64,000 nucleotides of DNA. Source: Candidatus Aminicenantota bacterium. Its GTDB lineage: Bacteria; Acidobacteriota; Aminicenantia; Aminicenantales; Saccharicenantaceae. The translations under genes were made by a program, and so were the position numbers. The DNA is taken from assembly GCA_026393975.1 (NCBI GenBank), contig JAPKZD010000011.1:1-64000 (forward strand). The letters run 5' to 3'. Position 1 is the stretch's first letter. Each line of letters starts with the position of its first letter. Of the stretch, positions 5,833-50,480 are shown piece after piece. The notes beneath the pieces were generated by a model. The model saw only the letters and a list, made by a program, of their open reading frames with translations, was not told the DNA's origin and ran no database searches.

Positions 5833-6950
5833 AAAGACGCCAGTTCATCCGCGGCGCCGCGGGGGCCGGACTCGTCGTCGGCGCCGGCCTTCCTTCCGTC
5901 TGCTCCGGCCTGGCCGTGTTCGGCGCCAAACCCAACCTCTCCCACGTCGAGGCCCGCTACTACGACAAGCTCCCCGACCGGGAGGTCGAGTGCCGCCTCT
6001 GCCCTCGGAAGTGCCGGCTCGGCGATAAGGAACGGGGCTACTGCGGCGTCCGCGAGAATATCGGCGGGACATATTACACGCTGGTCTACGGAAAAGTCTG
6101 CAGTCTCAACGTCGACCCGGTCGAAAAGAAGCCCTTCTTCCACTTTCTGCCCGGGACCTCCGCCTTATCCCTCGCGGCGGCAGGCTGCAACGTCAACTGC
6201 AAGTTCTGCCAGAACTGGGAGATCTCGCAGGTGCGTCCCGAGCAGGTCGACCATTTCGACCTGCCGCCAGAGAGGGCGGCCGCCCAGGCGATCGAGGCCG
6301 GATGTCCCTCGATCGCCTATACCTACACGGAACCCACCGTCTTCTTCGAGTACATGTACGACACGGCCGTCCGGTCCAAGCGAAGGGGCGTCAGGAACCT
6401 CGTCGTGACGGGCGGGCACATCAACCCGGAGCCTCTCGCCGACCTCCTGGCCGTCGTCGACGCCGTCAAGGTCGATCTGAAGGGCTTCACTCAGGAATTC
6501 TACGCGGAATATGTCCGCGGCGAGCTCAAGCCCGTCCTCGAGACGATCCGCGCCGTCGCCAAATCCAAGACCTGGCTGGAGATCGTCTATCTCGTCATCC
6601 CCACCCTGAACGATCGGATGGACCTCATCCGGGAGATGGCCAAATGGGTCAGGAACGAGGTCGGCGACCATGTTCCCGTCCATTTCTCCCGTTTCCAGCC
6701 GATGTACCTCATCAAGAACCTCCCGCCGACCCCCGTATCCACATTGGAAGCCGCCCGCGAGACCGCCCGCGAGGAGGGCCTGCACTTCGTCTACGTGGGC
6801 AACGTGCCCGGCCACGAGGGAGAGAACACGTTCTGTCCCGGGTGCGGGAAAGTGGCCGTCCAGAGGGTCGGCTACCGAATCACTTCGATTCAGCTCAAGG
6901 CCGGCCGGTGCGACACATGCGGCACGCCCATTCCCGGGGTCTGGACCTGA
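5829..6950 (+). CDS. AmmeMemoRadiSam-type radical SAM protein with a Tat signal
   Basis: This is a 373 aa radical SAM protein. The cluster motif is CNVNCKFC (Cx3Cx2C). It is preceded by the Cys-rich ECRLCPRKCRLGDKERGYCGVREN segment and followed by a C-terminal CPGC...CDTCG zinc-like motif, an arrangement typical of the AmmeMemoRadiSam radical SAM family (related to pyruvate-formate-lyase activases). The N terminus KRRQFIRGAAGAGLVVGAG is a twin-arginine signal followed by a hydrophobic stretch, which is unusual for an oxygen-sensitive radical SAM enzyme. It starts at GTG 5829 within the end of the DUF362 gene. The usual partners AMMECR1 and Memo are not in this window. The substrate is unknown. 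Confidence 0.88.
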   Translation: MKRRQFIRGAAGAGLVVGAGLPSVCSGLAVFGAKPNLSHVEARYYDKLPDREVECRLCPRKCRLGDKERGYCGVRENIGGTYYTLVYGKVCSLNVDPVEKKPFFHFLPGTSALSLAAAGCNVNCKFCQNWEISQVRPEQVDHFDLPPERAAAQAIEAGCPSIAYTYTEPTVFFEYMYDTAVRSKRRGVRNLVVTGGHINPEPLADLLAVVDAVKVDLKGFTQEFYAEYVRGELKPVLETIRAVAKSKTWLEIVYLVIPTLNDRMDLIREMAKWVRNEVGDHVPVHFSRFQPMYLIKNLPPTPVSTLEAARETAREEGLHFVYVGNVPGHEGENTFCPGCGKVAVQRVGYRITSIQLKAGRCDTCGTPIPGVWT

Positions 6951-9094
6951 AGCCCCGGCTCCCGGCCCTCCTCCTCGGCTTCCTGGCCGCAGCCTTCGAG
7001 ATCTATCTCCTCCGGGAATTTTGCGCGGAATTTTACGGCAACGAACTCACGTTCGGCCTTTTCCTCGGCTCCTGGCTTCTTTGGGGCGGCCTCGGCAGTC
7101 TCGCCCGGCCCGGAGCCGCGAAAGGAGCCTCTTTCGGACGCCTCTCCGGCCTCTACGGCCTCGCGATCGTGCTTTTCTTCTTGAGTCTTGTCGCGTTGAG
7201 GTTCTCGCACAGCCTGATGGGGATCCTGCCGGCCGAGCTCACGGGGCTTATGCCCGCCCTCGGGTTCGCCCTTTTCCTGAGCTTTCTCCTGAGCTTCCCC
7301 CTGGGCCATTACTTCGTCCTCAACGCCGGTCTCCTCGGCGGTGACGTTTCCCTTGTCTACCTCCTGGAATCTGCGGGAGCGGCGGTGGCCGGACTGGTCG
7401 TCCATTTTCTTCTCATACCCCGGTTTTCAAATTGGGAGGGAGGGGCTCTCATCGGCGCCGGGGCGGCGGTCCTGATCCTCGCGGGGATGAAGCCCGGGCG
7501 GGCACGTTGGCTCGTCGCCGCGGCGCTCGTCTCCGCCGCCTGCCTGGCCGCGTTCGACCTCCCATCCCAGAAAGCGGCCTGGAAACCCCTGCGCCTGGTT
7601 GAGGCCGAGGACACGCCTTACGGGAAGCTCCAGGTCATCAAGACCGAGGAGCAGGTGACCCTCTTCGACAACGGCCTTGCGGTCTTTTCGCACCCGGACA
7701 CCGGCGCTGCCGAGGAATCGGTCCACTTCGCCCTCCTCCAACGGGACGGCATCCGCAATGTTCTCCTCATCGGGGGCGGAGCGAGCGGCGGGGCCGCCGA
7801 AGTTTTGAAGTACCCGAACACTCGGGTGGACTATGTCGAGCTCGACCCGGCCATCATCCGGCTGTCTGAAAAGCACCTCGCCGCGGCGGATTTTGCCGCC
7901 CTCAGGAGCCCGCGCGCCCGGATCTTCAATCGTGACGGCCGGTCCTTTCTCGAAGGGACAAGCGAGCGTTACGACGCCATCATTCTCAACCTGCCCGAGC
8001 CGGCGACGGCCCAGGTCAACCGGTATTACACGCGCGAGTTTTTTCTCGAGGCGCGAAAAAAACTCAACCCCGGCGGCGTACTCAGCTTCACCGTCCCCTC
8101 GGCCGAAAACTACATCAGTGACGCGTTGGCTCAATTCCTGAGCTGTCTTGCCGGCACACTGCGCGGCGTCTTCCCTGAAGTCGTGGCCGTGCCGGGCGGC
8201 GACTGCGTGTTCCTGGCCTCGGAGAGCCCGCTCTCGATCGATCCTGCCCGCTTAGCGGCAACGATCGTCCGTCTCGGAATCAAGAACCGGTTCGTCAGCC
8301 CGGAGATGCTCCCCGCCCGTCTCAACTCTCTTCGCGTCGATTATCTGGCCGGAAAAATTTCAGGCCCGTCGACGAGGATCAACCGCGATCTCGTGCCCGT
8401 GAGCTACTACTTTCATTCGATCCTCTGGGCCGCCCAGTTCCGCGGTTTGGAGTCGAAACTCCTTCAGGCCGCCGGCCGAATCCCCTCGGGCTGGCTCCTG
8501 GACGCGCCCCTGGCCGTTTTCGCCCTCGGCCTGGTCTTCCTGGCGCTCAGGAGGAAGCGCTCCAACGCCCGCTTCCTCGTTCCCGTCGCCGTCATGGGTT
8601 TGACATCGATCGTCGTCGAACTCGTCGTGTTCCTGGCCTTCCAGGCCAATTTCGGCTGCGTCTACGGTAAAATCCCCCTCCTCCTCGCCTTCTTCATGGC
8701 CGGCCTCGTCCTCGGCTCGCTCCTAGCCCGGCGGCGTAAACAGCCTGGCCGCTTTGACTTGCCCGTGGTCCAGGGCGCCCTTGTCCTTGCCCTCCTCATC
8801 ACGCTCGGGGGCCTGTCGGGGACCGGCGGAGAGTTCGTTTCTTTCGCCCTCCTGCTTGCGTTCGGCGCTCTCGGAGGCTATCTGTTCGTTTGCGCGAACA
8901 GGCTCCTCCTCCGCGAGACCCCGCACCCGGGTCTCGGCTACGGCGTCGACCTGTTGGCTTCGTTCGTCGGCGTGGCCCTGGCTTCCGCCGTAATCATTCC
9001 CCTCTGGGGCCTTCCCGCCGTACTCCTCCGCTTGGCCATCCTCAACGCCATCTGCTTCGCCTACCTCCTCGCCACCTCCTTCTCAAGATCCTAG
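6917..9094 (+). CDS. Membrane-embedded spermidine-synthase-like protein
   Basis: This protein of about 715-725 aa has three parts. There is an N-terminal membrane domain of about 6-7 helices, a central spermidine-synthase-like methyltransferase fold (TPYGKLQVIK, LFDNG, VLLIGGGASGG, VDYVELDP), and a C-terminal membrane domain of about 6 helices. Where aminopropyltransferases carry the catalytic DSTDP-type motif, this one reads NLPEPATAQ, so the catalytic Asp is Asn and polyamine synthesis is doubtful. The start is uncertain. ATG 6917 overlaps the radical SAM gene by 34 nt; CTG 6947, overlapping its stop by 4 nt, would fit the operon style better and gives MKPRLPALLLG. Confidence 0.8.
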   Translation: MRHAHSRGLDLKPRLPALLLGFLAAAFEIYLLREFCAEFYGNELTFGLFLGSWLLWGGLGSLARPGAAKGASFGRLSGLYGLAIVLFFLSLVALRFSHSLMGILPAELTGLMPALGFALFLSFLLSFPLGHYFVLNAGLLGGDVSLVYLLESAGAAVAGLVVHFLLIPRFSNWEGGALIGAGAAVLILAGMKPGRARWLVAAALVSAACLAAFDLPSQKAAWKPLRLVEAEDTPYGKLQVIKTEEQVTLFDNGLAVFSHPDTGAAEESVHFALLQRDGIRNVLLIGGGASGGAAEVLKYPNTRVDYVELDPAIIRLSEKHLAAADFAALRSPRARIFNRDGRSFLEGTSERYDAIILNLPEPATAQVNRYYTREFFLEARKKLNPGGVLSFTVPSAENYISDALAQFLSCLAGTLRGVFPEVVAVPGGDCVFLASESPLSIDPARLAATIVRLGIKNRFVSPEMLPARLNSLRVDYLAGKISGPSTRINRDLVPVSYYFHSILWAAQFRGLESKLLQAAGRIPSGWLLDAPLAVFALGLVFLALRRKRSNARFLVPVAVMGLTSIVVELVVFLAFQANFGCVYGKIPLLLAFFMAGLVLGSLLARRRKQPGRFDLPVVQGALVLALLITLGGLSGTGGEFVSFALLLAFGALGGYLFVCANRLLLRETPHPGLGYGVDLLASFVGVALASAVIIPLWGLPAVLLRLAILNAICFAYLLATSFSRS

Positions 9095-9127: not shown

Positions 9128-9144
9128 TTCCAAATATATTGGAA
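9128..9144. repeat. Short AT-rich palindrome
   Basis: TTCCAA (9128-9133) and TTGGAA (9139-9144) are a perfect inverted repeat around ATATA. It lies 34 nt after the stop of the spermidine-synthase-like gene and just before the large palindromic element. It could be a protein-binding site or a small hairpin. No function is evident. Confidence 0.5.
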
Positions 9145-9164
9145 TAATTCCGCGAGGCATGACT

Positions 9165-9316
9165 GGGGCGCCGCCCGGGCTGTGATGGGGAACATCCAGA
9201 ACCCCCGTAGCGGAGGGGGTCCCATCGGCTTGCCGATGGGGGAACCGTCGGGAAGGGTTCCCGGGGGCCGGGGGAAATGGATGGTCCCCATCATAGCAAA
9301 AACCGGGTGGCGCCCC
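9165..9316. repeat. Multi-branched palindromic element (structured RNA or REP-like)
   Basis: Two outer inverted arms enclose three back-to-back hairpins. Outer arms: 9165-9178 pairs with 9303-9316 (one G-T), and 9181-9198 pairs with 9278-9295 (one mismatch plus one wobble). Inner hairpins: 9201-9206 with 9215-9220 (ACCCCC/GGGGGT), 9221-9228 with 9233-9240 (CCCATCGG, CTTG loop, CCGATGGG), and 9241-9246 with 9256-9261 (GGAACC/GGTTCC). TGAC occurs just outside both ends (9160-9163 and 9317-9320). The element lies upstream of the likely TonB-gene promoter, so it is probably not that gene's leader. Together with its flanks it fills the 332-base gap between genes. Confidence 0.7.
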
Positions 9317-9378
9317 TGACCAAGCCTAGCGGTTCAAATAGCAGGACGAAATGCGGCCGGGCGACTCATGTAACTATT

Positions 9379-9426: not shown

Positions 9427-10353
9427 ATGTTTGAGGATTGTCTTCCCGCCCCGAAGAAGAACAGCCGGCCGCCGCGCGACAAGGCCATCGGCGCTCTCGT
9501 CACTCTGCTCTTCCACGGAATTCTGGGTATCGCCATCTACCATGGCCGGTTCACGGTCAAGATCCTGCCCTTCGAGAAGGAAGAGGTCCGCGCCGTCATG
9601 CTCGTCCCCCCACTTAAGGTGAATATCCCGAAGATCGTCGGCGGCCGGGGACTGACGGCCGAACCCTCCGGCCTACCGGAGAAAGCAGGCCCTCCCGGGA
9701 CGGAACGGCCGGCCGAAGATGTCCGGCAGGAGCCGGCGGCGGGCCTGGGAACACCGGCCAAAGCCCCCCCGGGCGAGGCCCCTCGCACCGCGGCCGGCGC
9801 CGGCTCTGCCATCCCTTCCCTCTCCTCTAAATACCAGGAAATGATCGACAAGCCCAAACCGGCCGGTGAATCCGGCCTGACGATCGCGCTCGCGCCGCCG
9901 GGCACCCCTCCCGGCCCCCCCGGCGTCGGCGGCGGCCCCCCACTCCCGGATTTTTCGAAGTACGGCCGGGGCGCCTACGGGGGCGGCGGATACGGAGGGG
10001 GCGGAGGCCGAGGCGGCAGCGGAACGGGAGGCCGCCAACGGGTCGGCGTCTCCATCGCGCTCAAGGGCTATGATCTTTTACCTTGGGCCTCCGTCGTTGT
10101 CGACCGGATCCAGCGCTTCTGGAACCTGCCCGCCGTGCCCGAACTGCCCGACCCGGCCAAGGTTCGGCTGATCGTCGTCATCAAGAAAAGCGGCGAGCTC
10201 GATTCGATCGAGATCCTCGAGGGAACCTCCGTCGAGGTTCTCGACCGGGCCGCGCTCGAGGCGATCCGGGCCGGATTCCCCTTCCCCGCCCTTCCCGCTG
10301 ATTTCCCCGGCGACCTCCTGGAGATCACCTTCGAGTTCGTCTACAATGACTAA
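9427..10353 (+). CDS. TonB C-terminal-domain energy transducer-like protein
   Basis: This 308 aa protein has TonB topology. A short cytoplasmic N terminus is followed by one membrane helix (about residues 20-40), a Pro-rich periplasmic stretch (80-175), a Gly-rich tract (about 180-205, GGGGYGGGGG) and a C-terminal TonB domain (about 215-308) with ILEGTSVEVLDRAALEAI and PFPALP. In the family this domain contacts outer-membrane receptors. No exbB or exbD is adjacent. The N-terminal helix lacks an evident SxxxH motif, but FHGILGIAIYHG is similar in placement. The gene overlaps the next one by 8 nt. Confidence 0.8.
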   Translation: MFEDCLPAPKKNSRPPRDKAIGALVTLLFHGILGIAIYHGRFTVKILPFEKEEVRAVMLVPPLKVNIPKIVGGRGLTAEPSGLPEKAGPPGTERPAEDVRQEPAAGLGTPAKAPPGEAPRTAAGAGSAIPSLSSKYQEMIDKPKPAGESGLTIALAPPGTPPGPPGVGGGPPLPDFSKYGRGAYGGGGYGGGGGRGGSGTGGRQRVGVSIALKGYDLLPWASVVVDRIQRFWNLPAVPELPDPAKVRLIVVIKKSGELDSIEILEGTSVEVLDRAALEAIRAGFPFPALPADFPGDLLEITFEFVYND

Positions 10354-46436: not shown

Positions 46437-46530
<94 letters not shown>

Positions 46531-46596
46531 GCGGTCAGGGAACGTGGGGCTATTCTAGCATGAGAGCGGGGCTAAATCCAGAGACTGCCCCGCCCT

Positions 46597-46887
46597 TCAG
46601 CACGGCCCCCACTTATGCCGCGGATGGCGCTTCGTGTATTCCACGGCCGTGTTTTTCGTGATGCGATGCCACGGCTCCCCCGTCTTGGCCCCGACGATCC
46701 CGGCCAGAGCACAGCGGCAGAGCGTCGGGTCGACCTTCCTCCGCAGCTTGTGGAAGACGTCGTATGGGTCGCGCTTGAGGAAGTCCTCTTTCGTCTTGAT
46801 GCCGATCTTCTCGAGCTTGGCGGCCGTCGTCTTGCCGATGTTCGGCAGGTCGGTGACCTTGCTGGGGGCTTTCGCGGGTTTTCTCAT
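46597..46887 (-). CDS. Helix-hairpin-helix protein, Cdd1/pathogenicity-locus-like
   Basis: This 96 aa protein opens with a helix-hairpin-helix (VTDLPNIGKTTAAKLEKIGI, about residues 11-30). It continues with DPYDVFHKLRRKVDPTLCRCALAG and PWHRITKN, a layout like the PF11731 group. A DNA- or RNA-binding role is possible from the HhH motif. It lies between two tRNA-Ser genes on the same strand and may be co-transcribed with them. The function is unknown. Confidence 0.8.
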   Translation of the reverse strand: MRKPAKAPSKVTDLPNIGKTTAAKLEKIGIKTKEDFLKRDPYDVFHKLRRKVDPTLCRCALAGIVGAKTGEPWHRITKNTAVEYTKRHPRHKWGPC

Positions 46888-46916
46888 GCCGGTCCTCTTC
46901 GCCGCGGGAGAGGGAT

Positions 46917-47005
46917 TGGCGGAGGGAGAGGGATTCGAACCCCCGTTCCGGAGACCGGAAAGCGGTTTTCAAGACCGCCGCCTTCAACCACTCGGCCATC
47001 CCTCC
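46917..47005 (-). tRNA. tRNA-Ser (anticodon UGA)
   Basis: The minus strand has acceptor GGAGGGA/TCCCTCC, D-arm GCCGAGTGG, anticodon TGA in GGTCTTGAAAACC, a long variable arm, T-arm GGTTCGAATCC, discriminator G and encoded CCA (46919-46917). It reads UCN codons. It begins 9 nt after the serS stop, an exceptionally tight placement suggesting processing from the serS transcript. Confidence 0.95.
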
Positions 47006-50201: not shown

Positions 50202-50217
50202 AAAAAAACGACCGTGC
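50202..50217 (-). terminator. SRP RNA terminator
   Basis: The 3' strand of the closing stem (50217-50210) is followed on the minus strand by CG and then seven T (50208-50202), so the RNA's own terminal helix can act with the T-run as an intrinsic terminator. Confidence 0.65.
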
Positions 50218-50480
50218 ACCCTGCTCCGACAGCACTCTCCCTGCGTGTCCCGAACCGCCGGCTCAGGCGAGGCTGACTGCCGCACAAGGAACCGTCCCGT
50301 TGCCGCTGCTACCTTCCGGTCCTGACGGAGTTCGCGGGAAGCCCTTCGCGCAGGGCCCCGGCCTTCAACGCCACGTGCAAGGGCACCGGCCAGAAAGAGG
50401 GAAGCCTCGGCAGGGGATTCGACCCCACTGGAGCGGATTGTGGGCCACAGGGCACCGCTACCTCCCCGTCTAGCACGGTC
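50210..50480 (-). ncRNA. ffs: Bacterial large signal recognition particle RNA
   Basis: On the minus strand the 5' end GACCGTGC (50480-50473) pairs with the 3' end GCACGGTC (50217-50210). The 5' part has GCTAGACGGGGAGGTAGCGG, typical of the Alu domain of large SRP RNAs. The S-domain core GTCAGGACCGGAAGGTAGCAGC includes the GGAA tetraloop that binds Ffh. A T-run follows the 3' end. Length (about 271 nt) fits the large type and not the 4.5S type of enterics. Confidence 0.93.

Follow-up and report, generated by a model that had tools for sequence, protein, structure and literature searches.

The stretch of DNA analysed here (the 'window', 64,000 nucleotides from a genome of Candidatus Aminicenantes, termed G000) carries a palindromic, cloverleaf-like element in the gap between two genes that run in the same direction. 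The upstream gene (plus strand, 6917-9094) is a long membrane-protein-like reading frame, found both by a codon-usage gene call and in the list of open reading frames, and about 60 bp separate its stop from the element; the downstream gene (plus strand, 9427-10353), identified in the same two ways, has a C terminus that reads as TonB-like. A short imperfect palindrome (TTCCAAATATATTGGAA, 9128-9144) stands directly to the left of the element and is also present in the relative G004. Elsewhere in the window, Rfam identifies ordinary features on the minus strand, a bacterial large SRP RNA and two tRNAs (50212-50478 and 46440-47005).

The arm pairings listed in a preliminary description of this locus (9165-9178 with 9303-9316, and 9181-9198 with 9278-9295) are all present, the latter with a single A.G mismatch at 9192:9284, as is an 8-bp hairpin (9221-9228/9233-9240) with the loop CTTG. 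The structure is also real by the measure of predicted RNA folding: the 181 nt from 9150 to 9330 fold at -119.6 kcal/mol, whereas 200 dinucleotide-shuffled versions give -83.7 +/- 4.2 (z -8.7, with none of the 200 as good), and the reverse strand of the same stretch reaches a z of -7.2. The limits first proposed, 9165 and 9316, fared less well than the pairing between them. The palindrome continues outward, with GGC at 9156-9158 pairing to GCC at 9324-9326, and the element, whose ends are decayed, is therefore estimated to span probably about 9156-9326 on the plus strand. Within it, a covariance model (R1, based on 32 copies) matches 9173-9304 of the plus strand with 131.5 bits (E 7.7e-25). 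The TGAC noted at both borders is indeed there (9160-9163 and 9317-9320), but was rejected as a target duplication because other copies lack it; it marks neither the border of the family nor the ends of the element.

From the outside inward, all on the plus strand, the element begins with an outer arm (9165-9178) that is the inverted-repeat end of subfamily A, GNCGCYRCCCGG, common to other copies of that subfamily; its 3' side (9303-9316) is defined by pairing and fold. The two strands of the rod P1 follow (9179-9198 with 9278-9297), then those of P2 (CCCCCG, 9202-9207, with CGGGGG, 9269-9274), the nearly invariant junction strand TAGCGGA (9208-9214), hairpin H2 with a variable but compensated stem (9221-9240), and hairpin H3 (9241-9261), in which GGAACC and GGTTCC enclose a loop of consensus G-N-CGGGACT (GTCGGGAAG in the window copy). 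Three contiguous hairpins had originally been described for this interior. Two of them stand, whereas the first (H1, 9202-9206 with 9215-9219) competes with P2 for the same bases and was rejected as the true partner of the CCCCC, being without covariation and contradicted by genus g4. The comparative evidence favours the 9202-9207/9269-9274 pairing, and with it a three-way junction that bears two hairpins, in place of a row of three; the aligned sequences pair the 5' CCCCC with the distal GGGGG.

The orthologous gap differs between relatives. G010 holds the same kind of element with a different arm sequence, G004 holds only the left half followed by other palindromic repeats, G011 holds an unrelated palindrome, and G001 and G012 hold nothing; several palindromes have thus been gained and lost at this site, the window copy among them. 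Since no more than the left half survives in G004, the fold can be dispensed with at this site. The palindrome in G011 (L112, G011:C119:34280-34450) is a different long one with inner hairpins (GTGAGTCGATTAACGATGGGT..ACCCATGGTATCGACTTATCAC), and perhaps represents another family of the same architecture. A search for an 8-bp duplication around the window copy, the ends of which are decayed, detected none; the copy is an old member of subfamily A.

Conservation and strand asymmetry of the core

All copies have in common a core of about 75 nt, a three-way junction with a near-invariant UAGCGGA and a CGGGAC loop, which carries two hairpins and caps a palindromic rod (P1 and P2) of variable sequence. 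Two alignments were used to examine it, one made without reference to structure (A1) and one of 93 distinct rows fitted to the model, a procedure that favours the structure (A2). In A1, 91.9% of cells are paired, 24 of the 39 pairs have double changes, and double-changed cells number 180 versus 45 in shuffled alignments; sliding by a single column reduces the pairing to 54% or less. The corresponding values in A2 are 93.0% paired cells and 693 double-changed cells versus 168 when shuffled, with slid versions at most 58% paired versus 93%. By this test for structured RNA, compensatory changes exceed both shuffled and slid controls in either alignment. A lack of homologues with compensatory changes, which the preliminary description held would count against the element, did not come about when the covariance check was run: such homologues exist.

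The compensation extends to each of the helices. P1 covaries in both alignments: its sequence is wholly different between subfamilies while its complementarity is kept, and all 20 of its pairs vary on both sides in A2. P2 pairs as CCCCCA with TGGGGG in G008, and as AGGCACA/TGTGCCT, GCACCCA/CGGGTGC and GGGAACA with GTTCCC in genus g4; six of the eight pairs of H2 change on both sides; and H3 appears, compensated, as GAGAACC/GGTTCTC in G341 (a genome described below). Two unpaired parts are near-invariant in A1, TAGCGGA and the H3 loop with its CGGGAC, the former being kept in the G341 copies as TAG[C/T]GGA.

Departures from Watson-Crick pairing are distributed unequally between the strands. Among 47 elements, wobble mismatches in the arms comprise 92 G.U and 17 A.C as read on the plus strand. 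When changes are placed on trees by parsimony, A1 yields 38 G.U versus 12 A.C events (p 3e-4), and A2 yields 64 changes from Watson-Crick to G.U versus 22 to A.C (p 6.5e-6), a difference of about threefold. The excess holds also for A>G versus T>C (26:4), which means that cytosine deamination is not its source. Young copies in G341 have a ratio of 11:13, the value expected before selection acts, and serve as a neutral control. The excess of G.U on the plus strand implies that selection sees one strand, in single-stranded form, and the simplest reading of that excess is that the strand would be RNA, although single-stranded DNA of one strand could also produce it. The proposal of a non-coding RNA is to this extent partly supported, in that compensatory changes and the one-strand excess of G.U over A.C point, at the level of sequence, to selection on a single-stranded fold. 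A protein-binding cruciform, which had been offered as well, is disfavoured, since a double-stranded cruciform supplies no reason for a G.U preference on one strand. The early impression that this is not a known RNA class agrees with Rfam, where searches at the gathering score and then at E values up to 10 gave no match.

Dispersal, insertion sites and ends

The window copy is not solitary. A BLAST search of 9160-9320 against its own genome returned 28 matches, about 12 of them full length, at 78-86% identity, so that the other copies whose absence the preliminary description had counted as adverse are present; R1 recognises about 23 loci there, with further weak hits mostly antisense of the same loci. 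All 23 copies are intergenic by the codon-usage gene call, in both orientations, lying between convergent (6), tandem (12) and divergent (5) gene pairs, and the tandem cases divide into five copies with the direction of the genes and seven against. No bias of strand or gene context was found among these copies, and such mixed placement is what a dispersed repeat would show and a leader RNA would not.

Of 60 relatives, 27 have matches. Public genomes scanned with a 49-locus pattern gave hits only in Candidatus Aminicenantes/Acidobacteria MAGs and in one MAG labelled Elusimicrobia, and R1 with strict filters, run on a phylum-wide sample of 297 genomes, gave hits in the window's own family alone; by BLAST, the core is present also in more distant order-level families. 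The Elusimicrobia-labelled MAG (JACQWW, G338) has 15 copies on many contigs, which have a GC content of 50-54% versus 61-69% in the Aminicenantes loci measured, and copies occur in 13 of its 59 sampled relatives, one of which, G341, has at least 56. The viral contigs searched gave no match. Three species of genus g4 (G015:C6:44696-45237, G019:C36:77960-78371 and G018:C16:60763-61232) have tandem arrays of three to four cloverleaf units, with a period of 144-173 bp, between one and the same pair of convergent genes, the array of G015 having a tRNA-like sequence just upstream. An NHFH motif beside these arrays that resembles one of a transposase belongs to a conserved protein longer than 400 residues, and was rejected as Y1 by length and family search.

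Several sites record gain or loss. Queries made of joined flanks indicate that the site of L127 is filled in G000 and G004 and empty in G010 and G011, and that the site of L117 is filled in the same two genomes and empty in G008 and G011. At the site of L124, the copy in G004 has been deleted between TGCCC repeats, and at that of L128, G011 has lost all but the arms.

The clearest record of insertion is found in G341, whose copies are 94% alike and are flanked by perfect 8-bp target-site duplications in 22 of 35 cases (mean identity 0.88 versus 0.30 permuted). Their ends (GTAAGGGTTTAGCGC, also GTAAGGGTTTAGCGCAGGGG) are of GTAAG type; IS66 is reported to start with GTAAG and to make 8-bp repeats (PMC11946415), and these two features together offer a lead that the G341 ends may be IS66-like. 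Subfamily B, to which most of the 23 copies in G008 belong together with some in G000 and elsewhere, bears ends GGYTCTTCTCCC (also given as GGTTCTTCTCCC) and AT-rich, partly decayed 8-bp duplications (0.55 versus 0.33 permuted, p 3e-4). Transposases of the ISL3 family occur in 21 of the 60 relatives, and several of the ISL3 elements of those relatives have GGTTC-type ends and 8-bp duplications (TTTTAATT, ATTATTTA, GAAAAAGG); the ISL3 ends GGTTCTTCTCCCATTT (G055) and GGWTCATCTCCCGATT (G058) match GGYTCTTCTCCCGNTT of subfamily B, where 16-mers agreeing at 12 or more positions are expected by chance at about 1e-4. Searches for an ISL3 transposase found none in G000, G004, G008, G010, G011 or G014 and found one in G058, the only high-copy carrier to have it, so the mobiliser is either absent today or of another family than ISL3. 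In subfamily A no 8-bp duplication is detectable (p 0.16) and the ends are not defined. Taken as a group, the copies are palindromes of 130-200 bp with terminal inverted repeats and without a transposase gene, and in G341 and subfamily B the target duplication has a fixed length of 8 bp. Of the 'REP/MITE-type' assignment made initially, the MITE half is therefore upheld by dispersal, insertion polymorphism and the 8-bp duplications of two subfamilies; the REP half is not.

Insertion into pre-existing hairpins was rejected for subfamily B, in which the complementarity of the flanks is at chance (p 0.58). The flanks of subfamily A are complementary beyond the conserved end (p 2e-4), its arms having a locus-specific extension; because two copies share an extended arm, TAGGGCCTCRGG, these flanks are tentatively read as decayed ends of the element rather than as host hairpins. 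Several subfamily B copies (L081, L085, L123, L049 and L060) abut an apparent rho-independent terminator, in its T or A run, which is consistent with the AT-rich target choice of that subfamily.

Insertion within genes is also seen. In G341, 12 of 37 copies lie in frames that remain open over all of the roughly 430 bp examined, and in 11 of these 12 the element plus its duplication measures 141 bp, or 47 codons. One copy sits in frame inside the Pfam methyltransferase domain of RsmE (which is matched as two stretches), another interrupts a SAM methyltransferase in frame, and one copy in the Elusimicrobia-labelled MAG lies within a PAS/histidine-kinase frame that continues through it. A longer variant in G341 (L328, L339, L341) has about 48 extra bases (GCCGTTCGCAGAGCTCGCGG..CTGCTCCGAGG) directly after TAGCGGA, and one such copy is that in RsmE (L327).

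Interpretation and rival explanations

The window copy is quite probably an old, MITE-like, non-autonomous transposable element with a conserved and strand-specific structured core. In a rather unlikely alternative it is a plain MITE whose palindrome owes its perfection to mutation, through template switching or hairpin repair, and not to selection, with a fold that has no function. Known replication mechanisms do correct and delete palindromes, copies were lost as described above in G004 (between TGCCC repeats) and in G011 (arms only), and the young G341 copies have no G.U bias. However, template switching gives Watson-Crick pairs only, and can neither yield the 64:22 excess of G.U on one strand nor keep unpaired TAGCGGA and CGGGAC loops across lineages with different ends. 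The strong covariation and invariant loops would also suit a host structural RNA or regulator (an sRNA, attenuator or terminator) with many paralogues and no transposition, as would the arrays maintained at one convergent locus in three g4 species, in which P2 differs yet remains paired; such an RNA is nonetheless improbable, since it does not account for exact 8-bp duplications, orthologous sites that are filled in some genomes and empty in others, a single genome with at least 56 copies that are 94% alike, copies within genes, or a gene context and orientation that are not fixed. A cis-regulator reading was tested and not supported.

Also quite improbable is a palindrome of REP/BIME type moved as single-stranded DNA by a RAYT (Y1 HUH) transposase that reads a strand-specific fold, a mode of transposition that would give strand-specific tolerance of G-T. 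GTAG occurs in the core, GTAG-tagged REPs have been described (PMC3733652), and Y1 domains are present in 49 of the 60 relatives. Against this, G004 (96% complete) and G010 have high copy numbers and no match to PF01797, many genomes with a Y1 domain lack the element, and the element is about five times longer than REPs. The RAYT gene of G000 (G000:C15:195600-196800; L218 600-1800) is flanked on both sides by its own palindrome of about 75 bp (AAGAAGGTACCAGGTCTACGCAATGCCAATTTTGGCATTGCGTAGACC..), unlike the cloverleaf. Target duplications of 8 bp, moreover, are typical of DDE and not of Y1 transposases. Assignment to the REP/RAYT class was rejected accordingly: the copies are 150-bp rods with an internal GTAG, not hairpins of 20-40 bp with an unpaired terminal GTAG, and they neither track nor flank a Y1 transposase gene. 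Copying through RNA by a reverse transcriptase, as a fragment of a retron or group II intron, is very improbable indeed. The fold is RNA-like, and the UAGC motif at the base of the rod recalls retron priming sites, a resemblance that is a lead only; yet RVT_1 is absent from every high-copy genome among the 60 relatives, except for a fragment in G009, Rfam gives no match at E values up to 10, and the combination of terminal inverted repeats and 8-bp duplications suggests a DDE transposase. A retron or group II derivative was rejected on finding no reverse transcriptase where copies are abundant.

Returning to the MITE-like element with a structured core, its core stays the same while the ends change, in lineages with at least two different labels, which suggests selection on the fold as well as on the jumping ends. 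A mechanism may be proposed in which a transposase made elsewhere would act on the inverted-repeat arms and insert the element with an 8-bp target duplication; the plus strand would be transcribed from a neighbouring or internal promoter; the transcript would fold into a long rod capped by the three-way junction and its two hairpins; the folded RNA, lying between genes as an insulator, transcript-end or RNase-processing structure, would allow the host to tolerate insertions or to profit from them; and copies with the fold kept would survive and re-amplify. Duplications attest this mode of transposition for the G341 and B subfamilies, subfamily A presumably shares it, and the enzymes responsible would be DDE transposases. 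The most likely role for the RNA would be to help the host tolerate the insertion. Because it is found on both ISL3-like and putatively IS66-like ends, the core behaves like a unit distinct from the ends to which transposase binds. A more speculative and distinctly tentative extension is that the 75-nt core might be a functional RNA module, captured by or moving between unrelated DNA transposons (with ISL3- and IS66-type ends) and spreading between phyla, with the transposon as 'vehicle' and the RNA as 'cargo'.

Related systems and neighbouring palindromes

Bacterial MITEs are usually seen as decayed transposon ends, whereas here the interior is the conserved part; its fold is selected on one strand, and the type of end differs from lineage to lineage. 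ERIC and Correia/NEMIS are bacterial MITEs with stable transcripts (reviewed in PMC10969869), and the present element resembles them in size (about 120-200 bp), inverted repeats, mainly intergenic location and target duplications, and, by its predicted fold, in the strong stem-loops of their transcripts; it differs in its conserved junction core on ISL3-like and putatively IS66-like ends and in the strand-specific conservation of its fold. The bcr1-bcr18 repeats of the Bacillus cereus group are similar by description, being dispersed and intergenic, with some MITE-like, about half of the copies transcribed, and some having a conserved secondary structure predicted to work as RNA (PMC3446304); unlike them, the present core occurs in two differently labelled lineages. 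Rickettsia palindromic elements (RPE) are palindromes of about 150 bp that insert in frame in protein genes (PMC10969869), a description that the G341 copies share, adding 47 codons with their duplication, whereas the 23 copies of G000, that of the window included, all lie between genes. GTAG/CGTC REPs (20-40 bp, with a terminal, unpaired tag) are associated with a Y1 transposase, and tyrosine transposases flanked by long inverted repeats are known in Acidobacteria (PMC3733652); the likeness to such REPs with RAYT or TIRYT lies in dispersed palindromes and a GTAG in the core, and the difference in greater length, an internal GTAG and copies not tied to a Y1 transposase. The insertion sequences of the ISL3 family (through matching ends in the order and the AT-rich 8-bp duplications of subfamily B) and of IS66 as reported (PMC11946415; through the GTAAG ends and 8-bp duplications of G341) are alike in their termini, but the element has a structured core in place of an internal transposase gene. 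If this is confirmed, the element would amount to a portable RNA that spreads by way of different transposases, well suited to studying why RNA folds persist in mobile palindromes; mobility is directly testable in G341, where young copies number more than 50 and the duplications are exact.

Other palindrome families accompany the cloverleaf. A second palindromic repeat (GGCAGGGAGCG..ACCGGCAGAATTGTGGCGG..CCACAATTCTGG..AAATATCT) lies inside H2 of several copies (L019 1333-1553, L021 1322-1556, L025, L026, and G004:C74 near 98140-98311), as if H2 were its preferred target. Hairpins of a third dispersed family (GGGGACACGTAC..GTACGTGTCCCC) occur alongside cloverleaf copies in G004:C74, L025 and L026.
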